This document shows positions 9,551-16,099 of a DNA stretch of 64,000 nucleotides, in pieces. Position 1 is the first letter of the stretch; the number at the start of each line of letters is the position of its first letter. This DNA is from Clostridia bacterium (GTDB lineage: Bacteria > Bacillota > Clostridia > Lachnospirales > Anaerotignaceae). The notes under the pieces were generated by a model, which made no database searches, was not told the origin of the DNA, and worked only from the letters and a program-made list of their open reading frames with translations. The stretch is taken from the NCBI GenBank assembly GCA_910575055.1, contig CAJTDC010000003.1, forward strand, positions 1 through 64,000, read 5' to 3'. The translations under genes were made by a program, and so were the position numbers.

Positions 9551-10615
9551 AATAAAAAAACAGTTGCTGTAATATTTGGCGGACAATCTTCAGAACACGA
9601 AGTTTCTCTCAATTCTGCTTCTACTATTATATCAAATATGGATGAAGAAAAATATTTTATTGTACCTATTGGTATCACAAAACAAGGGCAATGGCTCATT
9701 TATGACGGTTCTGTAGAACACATTAAAACAGGAGAATGGCAAAAATACAGTACACCAGCTATTATTAGTCCTGATGCTACACAAAAAAGTATATTAAAAA
9801 TTGTAGGCGGAAGAATAAAGGAAATTCCTGTTGATGTAATATTTCCTGTACTGCACGGCAAATGGGGAGAAGATGGTACTATACAAGGACTTTTTGAAAT
9901 GGCACAAATTCCTTATGTAGGAGATGGTGTATTGTCTTCTTCTGTTTCTATGGACAAAGTTTTTACAAAAATAATTGCAAGCAATGCTAATATACAACAA
10001 GCAAAATATTTATGGTTTTATGACCATCAATTAAAACAATGTGAAGAAATAGTAAAACAAATTGAAAAAGAATTACAGTATCCTTGTTTTATAAAACCAG
10101 CAAATACAGGTTCTTCTATAGGTATCTCAAAAGCACATAACAGAGAAGAACTAGAAAAAGCACTTCACTATGCTTCACAATTTGACAAAAAAATAATTGC
10201 TGAGGAATTTATAGATGGCAGAGAAATTGAATGTGCTGTACTAGGAAATGAAAATCCTATTGCTAGTGGTGTAGGTGAAATATTTTCTGCTGGGGAATTT
10301 TATGACTATGATGCAAAATATAATAATGCTGCTTCTAAAACTGTTGTACCAGCAGATTTACCTCAAGAAATTACAGAAAAAATCAGAGAAATTGCGATAG
10401 CAGTATTTAAAGCAGTAGAAGGTAGTGGTTTAGCTAGAGTGGACTTTTTAATACAAAAAGATACTAACTGTATTATATTTAATGAATTAAATACTTTACC
10501 TGGATTTACTTCTATTAGTATGTATCCTATGCTTTGGGAAGCGGAAGGAAAAACAAAAAAAATGCTTATTGATGAGTTAATTTCATTTGCACTTGAAAGA
10601 CAACAAAGCAAATGA
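9548..10615 (+). CDS. ddl: D-alanine--D-alanine ligase
   Basis: ATP-grasp enzyme joining two D-alanines for peptidoglycan precursors. The N-terminus VAVIFGGQSSEHEVSLNSA, the VLHGKWGEDGTIQGLFE segment, the ATP-grasp core CFIKPANTGSSIGISKA and the C-terminal VDFLIQKDTNCIIFNELNTLPGFT with Mg2+ ligands are all present. About 355 residues from the ATG at 9548; the frame is open from at least 9512. The start was chosen by homology because no Shine-Dalgarno lies close to it. It is followed 20 nt later by murI, which supplies D-glutamate for the same pathway. Confidence 0.95.
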   Translation: MNKKTVAVIFGGQSSEHEVSLNSASTIISNMDEEKYFIVPIGITKQGQWLIYDGSVEHIKTGEWQKYSTPAIISPDATQKSILKIVGGRIKEIPVDVIFPVLHGKWGEDGTIQGLFEMAQIPYVGDGVLSSSVSMDKVFTKIIASNANIQQAKYLWFYDHQLKQCEEIVKQIEKELQYPCFIKPANTGSSIGISKAHNREELEKALHYASQFDKKIIAEEFIDGREIECAVLGNENPIASGVGEIFSAGEFYDYDAKYNNAASKTVVPADLPQEITEKIREIAIAVFKAVEGSGLARVDFLIQKDTNCIIFNELNTLPGFTSISMYPMLWEAEGKTKKMLIDELISFALERQQSK

Positions 10616-10635
10616 CAAATGAGGAGGAAATAACA

Positions 10636-11439
10636 ATGGATAAAAGGCCTATAGGTGTGTTTGACTCTGGTGTGGGTGGTCTTACCGTAGTCAAACAAAT
10701 TATGAAAACATTGCCTCAAGAAAACATTATTTATTTTGGAGATACAGCAAGACTGCCTTATGGCACAAAATCTAAAAAAACAGTAACTAAATTTTCAAAG
10801 CAAATTGTACGTTTTTTATTAACAAAAAATGTAAAGGCAGTTATTATTGCCTGCAACACTGCAAGTTCTAACAGTTTGGAAGAATTAAGGCAAACATTTG
10901 ATATTCCTATATTTGGTGTTATTGTTGCTGGTGTAGAAGAAGCGCTTCGCTCTACCAAAAATAAAAAAGTAGGTATTATAGGTACTTCTAGTACCATAAA
11001 AAGCAAAGCATATGAAACATTAATTGCACAAACTGATAAAAGTATAGAAGTTTATACAAAACCTTGCCCCCTTTTTGTATCACTTGTAGAAGAAGGCTGG
11101 ACAGAAAATGCAGTTTCAAAATTAACAGCAGAAATTTATTTAAAAGAATTAATACAGAAGGGTATTGACTCACTTGTATTAGGCTGTACACATTATCCTT
11201 TATTAAAAAAATGTATAGGAGAAACAGTAGGCAATGACATCAAATTAGTTGACCCTGCAAAGGCAACTGCAAAAATGGTAAAAGCATTTTTAGCAGAGCA
11301 CAAACTGCTTATGCAAGGAGAAAATATTGCAGAAAGATATTTTTATATTAGTGATGACACAGATACTTTTAGTAGTATGTGTAAAAAAGCACTCAAACGA
11401 GAATACATACCTCAAATTATTGATATTGAAGCATATTAA
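10636..11439 (+). CDS. murI: Glutamate racemase
   Basis: Cofactor-independent racemase that provides D-glutamate for peptidoglycan. The two catalytic cysteines are seen in IIACNTASSN and LGCTHYPLL; the N-terminus IGVFDSGVGGLTV and YFGDTARLPYG are typical. 267 residues from the ATG at 10636, which has GAGGAGG 9 nt upstream; the longer open frame from 10612 overlaps the ddl stop and is not needed. Same transcript as ddl. Confidence 0.96.
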   Translation: MDKRPIGVFDSGVGGLTVVKQIMKTLPQENIIYFGDTARLPYGTKSKKTVTKFSKQIVRFLLTKNVKAVIIACNTASSNSLEELRQTFDIPIFGVIVAGVEEALRSTKNKKVGIIGTSSTIKSKAYETLIAQTDKSIEVYTKPCPLFVSLVEEGWTENAVSKLTAEIYLKELIQKGIDSLVLGCTHYPLLKKCIGETVGNDIKLVDPAKATAKMVKAFLAEHKLLMQGENIAERYFYISDDTDTFSSMCKKALKREYIPQIIDIEAY

Positions 11440-11452
11440 TATTTTGTTAAAA

Positions 11453-11492
11453 TAAAGAAGTCATAAAAAATATTTATGGCTTCTTTATTTAT
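11453..11492 (+). terminator. Terminator of ddl-murI
   Basis: AAAGAAG-T-CATAAA / TTTATG-G-CTTCTTT stem followed by T-rich sequence. It sits just outside the left end of the inserted cassette at 11495. Confidence 0.85.
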
Positions 11493-11560
11493 TGTAATCA
11501 AAGGCTCTTTTACCTTTCGTGTTTATGGAGCTAGGTACTGGTGATTTCATTAATCACAGT

Positions 11561-11590
11561 TTGAAATTTAAAAATTGGATATGATATAAT
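11561..11590 (+). promoter_or_regulatory. Promoter inside the cassette for the SUKH gene
   Basis: TTGAAA at 11561-11566, an 18-nt spacer and TATAAT at 11585-11590, 35 nt before the gene start. The gene therefore carries its own promoter within the mobile unit. Confidence 0.65.
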
Positions 11591-11625
11591 CAGAATAACA
11601 AATTGGAATTTAAAGAGGTGATTAT

Positions 11626-12288
11626 ATGTTTCGCAGAAAGGAAGTTGAAAGAATACTTGAGCAGGCACGACGTATGGACCCACAGTTGGAAATGTTTGGC
11701 GTTGCCGATCACCAGTACAGGCTTGGTTCGCCTGTTGATTTGGCGTTTGTCCGTACGATAGAGGAAGCATATCATTTCCGGTTTCCGGAGGATTACGTCC
11801 AGTTTATTACGGAAGTTGGCGACGGAGGTGCAGGGCCAGGCTATGGGCTTTATCCCTTCGGCTACTATTGTACAGAAGTAGAGAGTACTAAGGAGGCCAA
11901 AGCACGAGAAATATATCTGCGCGGTCTCGGAAGAGAGCTGAAGCTGTTGCCGATAGAATCTGAATGGCTGGAAGATTTCTGTATTTCCAAAGAGGAGTAC
12001 GAAAAAAATCCTGAAAAATATTTTCGGGGAGGTAAGGGGAGTTTTAATTGGGATAATGGTACTCCATATGGATTTTTCCATCTAGGCACATATGGGTGCT
12101 GGAGGGATTTTGGGCTGATTACAGCTGGGGAAAGATATGGTCAGGTATTTATACGTGACACGGAAGGCGCTTTTGAACTGGAAGCCAGAAATTTTGAGGA
12201 ATTTTACCAGGACTGGCTTAACTCTATTTTGGATACAAAGCAGTTTCAAAAAGAATTGGAAGAGTGGAGAAGAATTCGAAACAGATAA
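11626..12288 (+). CDS. SMI1/KNR4 (SUKH-1) family protein, probable immunity protein
   Basis: A 220-residue cytosolic protein with the SUKH core: LGSPVDLAFVRTIEEAYHFRFPEDYVQFITEVGDGGAGPGYGL split across residues about 34-76, then LGTYGCWRDFGLITAGERYGQVF and a C-terminal FEEFYQDWL helix. SUKH proteins commonly neutralise contact-dependent or polymorphic toxins; no toxin gene is nearby, so here it would be an orphan. AGAGGTG lies before the ATG. Codons rich in G and C (CGG, CCG, GGC, CTG) contrast with all neighbours, and the gene sits alone inside the mobile cassette, so recent transfer is likely. The exact toxin target is unknown. Confidence 0.85.
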   Translation: MFRRKEVERILEQARRMDPQLEMFGVADHQYRLGSPVDLAFVRTIEEAYHFRFPEDYVQFITEVGDGGAGPGYGLYPFGYYCTEVESTKEAKAREIYLRGLGRELKLLPIESEWLEDFCISKEEYEKNPEKYFRGGKGSFNWDNGTPYGFFHLGTYGCWRDFGLITAGERYGQVFIRDTEGAFELEARNFEEFYQDWLNSILDTKQFQKELEEWRRIRNR

Positions 12289-12390
12289 TTTCCAGTTTAT
12301 CAGGCGACGAGTCATTCTGGATTATTGCCAATTTTGCCATTTTGACGATAGAGAAATTATCAACACGAAAGGTAAAAGGGATTAATCAAA

Positions 12391-12614
12391 ACTATGTCAT
12401 ATTTCCTAAAAATAAGTGTATTTATATTGTTTTATACTGCACATTTACTATAGTATTATTATAGCAATATGAGAAATCACTTCAAAACATTAAAATTTAA
12501 TAATAAATGTATTTTGTTCATATTTTATTCATAACTTCGTTATATAATTGTAAAATAATTGAATTGATTTTGAATTAAATTTGTAAATACATTTCATTTT
12601 GGAGGGAATTACCG
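12391..12614. other. A/T-rich promoter region of the M23 hydrolase gene
   Basis: Host-like A/T-rich DNA begins again right after the cassette. No clear hairpin. The GGAGGG site at 12601 belongs to the next gene; a promoter is expected here but I cannot place it with confidence. Confidence 0.4.
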
Positions 12615-13796
12615 TTGAAGAAGTTTCTCATAACAATTGTGACTACTATATTAACATTTTCATTTTTTATTGCACCAGTGCCTGTACAGGCTGAAACAAA
12701 AACATTACAGCAATTACAAACAGAACGTGATAATTTAAAGAAAAAAACAGAAGAAGCAAAAAAGAATTTAGAAGAAGCAAAGCAAAAAAAACAATCTGTA
12801 GAACAAGAAGTTGCTGTATTAGACCAAACATTAAATGCTGAAAATGCACAGTTAGAAAAAGTAGAAGCTGATTTAGCAGAAGTACAAAAGCGTTTAGAAG
12901 AGTCCAAAAAAATGTTAGAAGAAGCATCTGAAAACAAAGAAAAACAATTAACTGTATTTGGTCAGCGTGTAAAATATATACATGAAAATGGTAATACAGG
13001 TTATTTAGATGTTATATTAGACTCAAAAGATATTAGCGACCTTTTTATGCGTATGCAGCATGTAGAAGAAATTATGAACTATGACAACAATCTTTTAAAT
13101 GATTTAAAAAATACAGAACAAATTATTCGCCAAAAAAAGGAAGATGTAGAACAAGAAGAAACAGAAACTGCCGAATTGGTAGAAGAACAAAAAACAGTAT
13201 TGGCAAGCCTTGAAAAACTAAAAGAAGAAAAAATGGCAACAGTACAGGCTTATGCACAAGATGAAGCAAAATATGACCAATTAGTAAAAAGCAATGAAGC
13301 AGCAAGTCAAGAAGTATCAAAATTGATTGCAGCAGCAACCGCTTCTTCTAATAATGATACTGTAGTATATACAGGAGGAAAATTAAACTGGCCAGTACCT
13401 TCCAGAGCTGCCTCTAGTTCTAGTTTAAGTAGTGGTTTTGTAAACAGAAAACGTCCTATAGGTAGTGGTTGGGAAAAACATACAGGTTATGACATTCCAG
13501 CAGCATATGGTTCCAATATTGTTGCAGCAGAAGGAGGTACTGTCATTACAGCAGGCTGGGTAAATGGTTATGGCAATACCGTTATGATAAATCACGGAGG
13601 TGGTATTGTTACATTATATGGTCATAATTCTAGTTTGACTGTTTCAAAGGGTCAAACTGTATCCAGAGGGCAAGTTATTGCAAAATGTGGAAGTACAGGA
13701 AATTCTACAGGAAATCATTGTCACTTTGAAGTGCGTGTAAATGGTTCTGCTGTAAATCCAGCTCCTTATTTAGGTGTAGCAAATATTTCAAAATAA
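12615..13796 (+). CDS. Secreted murein hydrolase, EnvC/NlpD-like, M23 peptidase
   Basis: 393-residue exported cell-wall enzyme or hydrolase activator. A signal peptide (residues 1-26, ending PVQA) is followed by a long charged coiled coil (about 27-245) and a C-terminal M23/LytM domain (about 258-390). Zinc ligands look intact: H-x3-D in KHTGYDIP and HxH in HCHFEV, with YGNTVMINHG between, so it may be an active endopeptidase. The coiled coil contains the typical YIHENGNTGYLDVIL segment of this Firmicute family. TTG start with GGAGGG 8 nt upstream. Monocistronic. Confidence 0.92.
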   Translation: MKKFLITIVTTILTFSFFIAPVPVQAETKTLQQLQTERDNLKKKTEEAKKNLEEAKQKKQSVEQEVAVLDQTLNAENAQLEKVEADLAEVQKRLEESKKMLEEASENKEKQLTVFGQRVKYIHENGNTGYLDVILDSKDISDLFMRMQHVEEIMNYDNNLLNDLKNTEQIIRQKKEDVEQEETETAELVEEQKTVLASLEKLKEEKMATVQAYAQDEAKYDQLVKSNEAASQEVSKLIAAATASSNNDTVVYTGGKLNWPVPSRAASSSSLSSGFVNRKRPIGSGWEKHTGYDIPAAYGSNIVAAEGGTVITAGWVNGYGNTVMINHGGGIVTLYGHNSSLTVSKGQTVSRGQVIAKCGSTGNSTGNHCHFEVRVNGSAVNPAPYLGVANISK

Positions 13797-13798
13797 TA

Positions 13799-13840
13799 AA
13801 AAAAGGCATTGATGTTATTTATTGTCAATGCCTTTTTTTA
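13799..13840. terminator. Bidirectional terminator between the M23 gene and cysK
   Basis: AAAAAAGGCATTGA / TCAATGCCTTTTTT stem, usable from both convergent genes. Confidence 0.9.
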
Positions 13841-14773
13841 TTAGTCTTGGAACAATGCTGTAGAATAATATCTATCAGCAGAATCTGGAAGTAATACCAC
13901 TATTGTTTTATTTTCATTTTCCTCTTTTTTTGCTAATTCAATGCCTGCATAAAGTGCTGCACCAGAGGAAATACCCACTAATATTCCTTCTGATTTTGCT
14001 AATTTCTTTGCTGCTGTAAAAGCATATTCATTTTCTACAGCAAATACACTGTCATAAATAGAGGTGTTTAATACTTTTGGCACAAATCCGGCACCAATAC
14101 CTTGTATTGCGTGAGCACCACTTTTTCCTTGAGAAAGTACAGGAGAACTTGCAGGCTCTACCGCAACCACTTTTATATTTTGATTTTGTGATTTTAAATA
14201 TTCTCCTGTTCCTGTTAGTGTACCTCCTGTACCTACTCCGGCAACAAAAATATCTACTTTTCCATCTGTATCATTCCATATTTCTACACCTGTTGTTTTT
14301 TTGTGCATTTGTGCATTTGCTTTATTATCAAATTGTGCAGGTATAAAACTGTTAGGAATTTCTTTTGCTAACTGTTCTGCTTTTTCAATCGCTCCAGCCA
14401 TACCTTTTGCACCCTCTGTTAATACTAATTCTGCACCATATGCCTTTAATATATTTCTTCTTTCTACACTCATTGTTTCTGGCATAGTCAATATAATACG
14501 ATACCCTTTTATTACTGCAATAGAAGCCAATCCAATTCCTGTATTTCCACTTGTAGGTTCAATAATAACAGAACCTTCTTTTAACAATCCTTTTTGTTCT
14601 GCATCTTCTATCATACCCTTTGCTGCTCTATCTTTTACACTTCCTGTAGGATTAAAATATTCTAATTTTAATAGAAGTCTTGCTTTTAATTGAAGCTGTT
14701 TTTGTAAACGAACTGGCTCTAATAATGGTGTATTTCCAATCATATCTAATGTGCTTTTATAAATTGCTGACAT
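13841..14773 (-). CDS. cysK: Cysteine synthase (O-acetylserine sulfhydrylase A)
   Basis: PLP enzyme making cysteine from O-acetylserine and sulfide. 310 residues. PLP lysine in NPTGSVKDRAAK, the substrate loop EPTSGNTGIGLA, the phosphate loop GVGTGGTLTGTGEYL and the C-terminal GISSGAAL are present. The frame is open to 14857, but the ATG at 14773 (MSAIYKSTLDMIGNTPLLE) is the family start and has AAGAAGG upstream; the extra 28 codons lack family resemblance. Convergent with the M23 gene. Confidence 0.95.
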   Translation of the reverse strand: MSAIYKSTLDMIGNTPLLEPVRLQKQLQLKARLLLKLEYFNPTGSVKDRAAKGMIEDAEQKGLLKEGSVIIEPTSGNTGIGLASIAVIKGYRIILTMPETMSVERRNILKAYGAELVLTEGAKGMAGAIEKAEQLAKEIPNSFIPAQFDNKANAQMHKKTTGVEIWNDTDGKVDIFVAGVGTGGTLTGTGEYLKSQNQNIKVVAVEPASSPVLSQGKSGAHAIQGIGAGFVPKVLNTSIYDSVFAVENEYAFTAAKKLAKSEGILVGISSGAALYAGIELAKKEENENKTIVVLLPDSADRYYSTALFQD

Positions 14774-14908
14774 AAATAACGCCTTCTTTCTGTAGTTATT
14801 CCTACTTATTTTATATGAATTACTTGTAATCATAGTACCTATATTAACATTTGTCAATACATTTTTTATTATTTTACTATTTTTTTACATAAAATAAAAG
14901 CAGAAGGC

Positions 14909-14935
14909 TTAATTTTTAATAATATGTTCCGATAT
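14909..14935 (+). promoter_or_regulatory. Sigma-28 (SigD/FliA)-like promoter
   Basis: TTAA (14909-14912), 15-nt spacer, TCCGATAT (14928-14935). The consensus for flagellar sigma-28 is TAAA-N15-GCCGATAA/T, so 3 of 4 and 7 of 8 positions agree. It lies about 100 nt before the gene at 15034 and has the same -35 variant and spacer as the site before yjfB. Confidence 0.55.
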
Positions 14936-15033
14936 ACTTATTAGAAGGCTACAAATAGTTTTATAAAAAATGATATAAAACGATATTGTATTAGAATTAT
15001 TTTATTATATTATTTAAAGGAAGGGGAAAAAAT

Positions 15034-15693
15034 ATGAATAACGTAAATATGAATGTAACTGTAAATGCAAGTGTATATGCATCTTCTACTGTTGCACAAC
15101 ATCAGAGCACAACTGTAAAAGAAGCAGGAAAAGAAACTACTACATCATCTACTCAGATTAAACAAGATACATTTGTTTCTTCTGCTTCTATATCTGCATC
15201 TAAAAATAATGCTACAGAAGAAAACAAAAATGTAACTTATGAAAAACCAAATAAATTATCTGCACAACAATTACAAGCACTTTCTGACCAAAGAGTTGCT
15301 TCTTTCAAAAATATGGTGCAGACAATGCTTGGAAAACAAGTAAAAACATTAAATAAATCTTTGTTTGAAGGCATTTCTATTAGTGCAGCAGATAAACAAG
15401 CAGCTATTGATGCAATTTCTCCAGGTGGAGCATGGTCACCAGAAAACGTTGCAGGAAATATATTAAATATGGCAAAAGCACTTTCGGGCGGAGATGTTTC
15501 TAAACTTGAAACATTAAAAAATGCTGTAATAAAAGGATTTCAAGCTGCTGAAAAAGAATGGGGCGGCAAATTGCCAAGTATTACAGATGAAACATACGAT
15601 TTGATTATGAAAGGCTTTGATGAGTGGGCAAATGAAGCTAAAGAAGCAAATGGTACAGACAGCTCTGTAAAAACAGAGAACGTAGAGGCTTAA
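15034..15693 (+). CDS. Conserved hypothetical protein, possible motility-regulon member
   Basis: 219 residues, no signal peptide or membrane helix. Residues 1-75 are low-complexity (Ser, Thr, Val, Asn rich); residues about 80-205 form a helical domain with DQRVASFKNMVQTMLGKQ, AIDAISPGGAWSPENVAGNI and ALSGGDVSKLETLKNAVIKG, ending in PSITDETYDLIMKGFDEWA. I know similar clostridial proteins only as uncharacterised. GGAAGGGG precedes the ATG. The sigma-28-like promoter upstream suggests expression with flagellar genes; that link is inference. Confidence 0.65.
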   Translation: MNNVNMNVTVNASVYASSTVAQHQSTTVKEAGKETTTSSTQIKQDTFVSSASISASKNNATEENKNVTYEKPNKLSAQQLQALSDQRVASFKNMVQTMLGKQVKTLNKSLFEGISISAADKQAAIDAISPGGAWSPENVAGNILNMAKALSGGDVSKLETLKNAVIKGFQAAEKEWGGKLPSITDETYDLIMKGFDEWANEAKEANGTDSSVKTENVEA

Positions 15694-15715
15694 TAACATT
15701 GTAATAAAACAAAAT

Positions 15716-15782
15716 GGCTCAATATACATAGTGTATATTGAGCCGGGGCAACTGTACAGGAAAGGGAATTTCATGTACAGTC
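15716..15782. repeat. Two adjacent perfect hairpins without a T-run
   Basis: First hairpin GGCTCAATATACA / TGTATATTGAGCC (15716-15744, 3-nt loop), second ACTGTACA / TGTACAGT (15751-15782, 16-nt loop), separated by GGGGCA. Unlike terminators here, neither is followed by T residues and they are richer in G+C than the surroundings. They could be a structured 3' end, an IS200/IS605-type or REP-like end, or a binding site. Confidence 0.55.
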
Positions 15783-15870
15783 CATAGTATAATTAAAAAT
15801 AATTAAAAATAACTTATAAATACATTAAATTTTAATGAAAAATATATCTTTTTTATAACCTCTAATATTA

Positions 15871-15910
15871 AAAACGCCTCTTACTTTTTTAAGTAAGAGG
15901 CGTTTTATAT
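15871..15910. terminator. Strong bidirectional terminator
   Basis: A 36-nt near-perfect palindrome with a 16-bp stem, AAAACGCCTCTTACTT / AAGTAAGAGGCGTTTT, and a 4-T loop. It lies about 180 nt after the gene at 15034. Confidence 0.85.
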
Positions 15911-16099
15911 TATTAATAATTTTCAGTGTGAATTTTAAATAACTTTAAGGAAATTATATATAAGATATACTTTTAAAACATTTATACTTCAATGATATAA
16001 AAATGTCATATTAATCATTATTTGTTTATTTTTCTGTTTATTATGACATATTTTTCAATATGTTATAAATTGATGAATAAGTATACAAATAACAAATGA

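Follow-up and report, generated by a model that had tools for sequence, protein, structure and literature searches.

The window analysed here, a 64-kb stretch of a Clostridia bacterium contig, contains an 880-bp element situated between what we take, from their sequences, to be murI on one side and an M23-type peptidase gene on the other. Its features are listed in Table 1. Outside each arm of its inverted repeat are four bases (GGCT in the left end and GGAT in the right) and then the octamer TAATCAAA. This arrangement had been described in a previous sequence-only reading of the same DNA and was confirmed base by base. No other perfect 17-bp inverted repeat with a spacing of 100 to 2000 bp occurs in the window. 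The G+C content is 0.42 in the element and 0.30 in its flanks. One plausible gene lies between the ends, and the ends, duplications, and ORF lists bear out the earlier description of a unit that lacks a transposase and is bounded at the octamer. The gene had also been credited with its own promoter, and a TTGAAA-18-TATAAT promoter is predicted upstream of it. When a terminator was sought in the 3' block of the window copy, folding was not significant (z-score -1.4).

Table 1. Coordinates of the element and its component features in the window.
Feature	Position	Strand	Basis or remark
Whole element	11503-12382		880 bp; transposase-less; one cargo gene and a putative promoter of its own
Left 8-bp target-site duplication TAATCAAA	11495-11502	+	Sequence; retained in G001
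Left terminal end: GGCT + 17-bp inverted repeat CTTTTACCTTTCGTGTT + TAT	11503-11526	+	Sequence
Inverted-repeat arms CTTTTACCTTTCGTGTT	11507-11523 and 12362-12378		Perfect, 17/17; 19/20 when extended
Sigma-70-type promoter (predicted)	11561-11590	+	TTGAAA 11561-11566, 18 bp, TATAAT 11585-11590
Ribosome-binding site AAAGAGGTG	11612-11620	+	Sequence; purine-rich block similarly placed in many members
Cargo gene, 220-aa SUKH-1 (SMI1/KNR4) family protein	11626-12288	+	Pfam PF09346
3' block (TTCCAGTTTATC..., ...TTTTGACGA...) ahead of right end	12289-12358	+	Other members have related motifs
Right terminal end: ATCAACACGAAAGGTAAAAG + GGAT	12359-12382	-	Inverted copy of left end
Right 8-bp target-site duplication TAATCAAA	12383-12390	+	Sequence

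The product of the cargo gene scored 27.6 bits against the Pfam SUKH-1 model (PF09346), which exceeds the cut-off of 25.4, and the proposed SUKH assignment was upheld on this basis. The protein had no NCBIfam match, and AlphaFold run on the single sequence gave an unusable fold (pLDDT 33). The SUKH protein may protect against a toxin or be useful in another manner.

The exact 17-mer was found once more in the host genome, on contig C19, where the partner copy has two mismatches. This second element (end pair at C19:21707-22090; 392 bp) has its own duplication (AATTTTTA), also offset by four bases, and its cargo is a 53-aa DUF6440 protein. The left end also recurs in L008, L018-L031, L067-L084, and L138-L170. 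An exact-pattern search of GTDB contigs returned 13 further stretches, and the genomes were labeled Clostridia, Oscillospiraceae, Oscillibacter, Flavonifractor, or only Firmicutes or bacterium. Matches with two or fewer mismatches to the 20-base end were present in 26 of 400 genomes from the family of Oscillibacter sp. 1-3; among 98 host relatives searched, the match was confined to the host itself. A pattern search of 2.9 million viral contigs gave five matches, none with paired ends, and BLAST of the cassettes against plasmids and phages returned only cargo homologues and no copy of the ends.

Thirty-two end pairs were chosen by end score alone (both ends at least 16/20, nearest partner within 2 kb), and the corresponding elements were 194 to 1492 bp long. 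Octamers identical at seven or more of the eight positions were present at offset four on both sides in 27 of these pairs (perfect in 22), whereas none of the 3936 shifted-offset controls reached 7/8. This difference shows that the elements form a mobile family that duplicates 8 bp of its target. Since the ends recur on C19 with a duplication of their own, and in view of the same difference from the controls, the repeat in the window is not due to chance. A search for the same ends with other cargo had been suggested, and such recurrence was found at the second host copy and at dozens of gut clostridial loci.

More than 20 different genes occur as cargo of this one type of end. Cargoes above the curated Pfam cut-off were DUF6440, Abhydrolase_3, two GNAT acetyltransferases, a transglutaminase core, two Rce1-like proteases, a 2'-5' RNA ligase-like protein, Abhydrolase_1, an ECF sigma factor, DUF3781, DUF3788, DUF6144, and an HD domain, with some of these assignments (DUF6144, HD, and one GNAT) referring to elements in which only one end was identified. 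Several cargoes had no Pfam match. Since the same ends occur with many different genes, the cassette appears to be a general vehicle for the movement of single genes. The idea of an immunity-spreading device was too narrow because SUKH is just one of many cargoes with these ends, and we regard the cassettes as a general gene-carrying family.

A homologue of the L030 cargo is encoded on a Lactiplantibacillus plasmid; the similarity starts and stops with the ORF, and cassette ends are absent from the plasmid. An alpha/beta hydrolase gene resembling this cargo is located beside a cysteine synthase gene at L264:8953-9582 (G004:C13), also without recognisable cassette ends. The longest cassette (L165:740-2231) contains the ECF sigma gene and a second gene, similar to genes in a transposon at L176 described below.

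When the members were oriented by their cargo, many shared a -35-like box, a spacer of 15-19 bp, and TATAAT at the promoter end, and the -10 box started at element nucleotide 82-83 in approximately half of the aligned members. A promoter score of at least 9/12 was obtained at this end in 24 of 33 members, against 23% of shuffles and 8 of 33 members at the other end. In members with a clear cargo, the start codon is usually approximately 117-134 nt from the end, and a few are further in. Beyond the 22-base end, the median similarity to the window copy was 0.66 on the promoter side (shuffles, 0.59) and 0.61 on the 3' side, hardly above the shuffles (0.59). The promoter inside the left end probably works; because the ribosome-binding site also lies within this end, expression of the cargo would be expected at any landing site.

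The SUKH cassette itself is present in L149, from a genome of the Oscillibacter family, where the alignment extends from the initial GGCT through the final GGAT and the encoded protein is 83% identical to that of the window. The duplication at L149 is TCTCCAAC, and the flanks have a G+C content of 0.60-0.61 versus approximately 0.30 at the window site. Sequence comparison indicates that the same SUKH cassette occupies unrelated sites in two genomes, one of which, that of L149, belongs to the Oscillospiraceae. When the L156 element was removed together with one octamer, a 274-aa MotA was restored, which aligned to PDB 6ysf with no gap at the site. Removal of the L025 element restored a 351-codon frame. 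A comparison with the empty site had been proposed, and at these two loci, empty sites were reconstructed; at the window locus, no empty allele was found, and the one close relative having the region (G001) carries the insertion. In G004, the murI/M23 neighbourhood was absent from the stretches examined.

G001 is a same-genus relative with a single 2.92-Mb contig and approximately 90% identity. It has the same cassette at the same site with both copies of TAATCAAA. Identity between G001 and the window was 0.75 and 0.83 at the ends and 0.90 in the SUKH gene, the proteins being 87% identical. The dN/dS values of the SUKH gene were 0.19 (G001 comparison) and 0.17. These values indicate that the SUKH gene is under purifying selection and that the cassette ends are decaying. 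In the simplest reading, the insertion predates the split between the host and G001, and the cargo has since been kept by selection. A segment of approximately 6 kb that spans the cassette together with murI and the M23 gene (9977-15972 of the window) is inverted in G001 (L239/L240).

These observations raise the question of whether the SUKH cassette is now fixed, namely, an old insertion with a domesticated cargo that no longer moves. The shared insertion in G001 with its more decayed ends favors this view, as does the finding that ISL3, IS256, and IS1595 transposases were not found in the host. However, the 17-bp inverted repeat of the window copy is still perfect, and another element may bring in a related transposase. 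We consider the chances to be evenly balanced, and fixation is compatible with the explanation that we prefer for the origin of the cassette, which concerns the transposase.

Target duplications of 8 bp are common to several transposase families. The previous assignment of the ends to ISL3, with an ISL3 transposase moving the unit, agrees with such a duplication and with ends that start with GG. However, ISL3 transposases (PF01610) were absent from the host and 11 cassette-bearing genomes (12 genomes in total) in searches run with positive controls, and ISL3 was rejected as the source for this reason. Furthermore, a cassette-type end was found with an IS1595-type transposase remnant in one element (L170). 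The ISL3 assignment was not sustained, and we regard an ISL3-derived cassette as highly improbable.

The element at L170:1847-2700 is complete, 854 bp long, and flanked by the duplication TGATTTTT. One of its ends is of the cassette type (ATCCCTTTTACCTTTTGTGTTGATATAAG), and the transposase-side end (GTCCCTTTTCAAGATAAGTGTTGC) matches the cassette end over the first nine bases and then diverges. Besides a small passenger ORF, it contains a C-terminal IS1595-type transposase remnant, which is 35% identical over 66 residues (E 2e-6) to P0001, the transposase of L176. The source may instead be IS256 or another DDE family that generates 8-bp duplications, with the L170 remnant being a chance nested piece. 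L170 is a single locus, several families make duplications of this length, and P0001 gave weak zinc-ribbon matches to IS256 models. However, the remnant and the cassette-type end are enclosed by matching 8-bp duplications, and IS256 transposases (PF00872) were absent from the host and 7 of the 11 cassette-bearing genomes. IS256 was rejected as the source because of this absence, and we consider an origin from IS256 or a similar family to be improbable.

The L176 element is an intact IS1595-type transposon of 3926 bp with the duplication TTTTAGAA (L176:2529-6454; G486:C9) in Oscillibacter sp. 1-3, a genome with approximately ten cassette ends. It carries genes for an Mrr-like nuclease, P0001 (87.8 bits against the NCBIfam IS1595 cut-off of 75), and an ECF sigma factor, as well as another ORF. 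Its ends are related to the cassette consensus but different; 17 of 26 positions are identical, and none of 2000 shuffles was as good. In comparisons with the ends of ISCaje6, 0 of 2000 shuffles were as good for the window end and 5 of 2000 for the consensus, and other known members were weaker. ISSag10 with lnu(C) (L104) and a Niallia element have GGCT-type ends, 8-bp duplications, and one passenger gene each.

A transposase 88% identical to that of L176 is present in G612. In G700, a related transposase gene (42%) follows a similar nuclease gene and is split across two contig ends (L182/L191; G700:C66 and C23). A repeated sequence, perhaps an inserted IS, is common to both contig ends. An apparent DNA methylase gene lies behind the Mrr-like nuclease and transposase genes of G700. 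An intact transposase between exactly the cassette ends was not found. Most of the cassette-bearing genomes, including the host, had no match to PF12762, although this model missed the split copy in G700; the small number of matches suggests that the enzyme is usually absent, broken, or diverged where cassettes occur. The other PF12762 matches, L102 and L101, were rejected as sources because no cassette-type ends were nearby. On a Collinsella plasmid (L107; NZ_OY725717.1), an IS1595 transposase gene lies directly upstream of RelB antitoxin and N6-DNA methylase genes.

We concluded, with a probability of approximately 80%, that the 880-bp element is an IS1595-derived, non-autonomous mobile insertion cassette (MIC) that is moved in trans. 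The unit would comprise two related ends (GGCYCTTTTACCTTTCGTGTTGATGG and RTCCCTTTTACCTTTCGTGTTGATA), a promoter end that is constant, one cargo gene, and the 3' block. A related transposon probably provides an IS1595-type transposase in trans, which would cut at the cassette ends and insert the unit elsewhere with an 8-bp target duplication. Movement in trans by a transposase encoded elsewhere is most likely, and we infer that an IS1595-type enzyme performs this role.

The cassette family, which is scattered through gut Clostridia, is apparently undescribed; no description was found in the open-access literature. Single accessory genes may have a route to move between families and, with the predicted promoter, to be expressed on arrival. 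Gene movement of this type escapes searches for transposases or plasmids. The end sequence provides a concrete handle for counting such events and finding the driving enzyme.

MICs have so far been known from a few isolated cases, including MIC231 of Bacillus cereus (Chen et al. 1999, cited in PMC6542083) and those with qnrD and qnrS2 (PMC3913671, PMC5444012). Similar to these, the present cassettes have IS-type inverted ends and a target duplication around a passenger gene, their ORF lists contain no transposase gene, and they probably depend on a transposase elsewhere. However, they apparently derive from a different IS family, and they share a promoter end and usually have similar spacing to the start codon of the cargo. 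One type of end carries more than 20 genes, mostly behind an end-borne promoter, in many gut Clostridia genomes. Passenger-carrying elements of the IS1595 family (Siguier et al. 2009, cited in PMC12888890), of which ISSag10 with lnu(C) is one, resemble the cassettes in their GGCT-type ends and single passenger, and the duplication is 8 bp in the cassettes, ISSag10, the Niallia element, and L176. In contrast, IS1595 passenger elements carry their own transposase, which the cassettes lack, and the cargo of the cassettes lies directly behind a promoter in the end. MITEs are also small, with inverted-repeat ends, a duplicated target, and no transposase, whereas most of the cassettes (0.2-1.5 kb) contain a full-length gene and their cargo varies. 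We also considered the tentative and rather doubtful idea that the cassettes are a transposon-based counterpart of integron cassettes, in which ends with a promoter and ribosome-binding site capture genes from start to stop and spread between families of gut Clostridia, with the transposase located elsewhere. In integron gene cassettes, numerous small accessory genes likewise share one kind of flanking frame. However, integron cassettes form arrays without target duplications, whereas the members of the present family are single insertions with 8-bp duplications, each with its own promoter.
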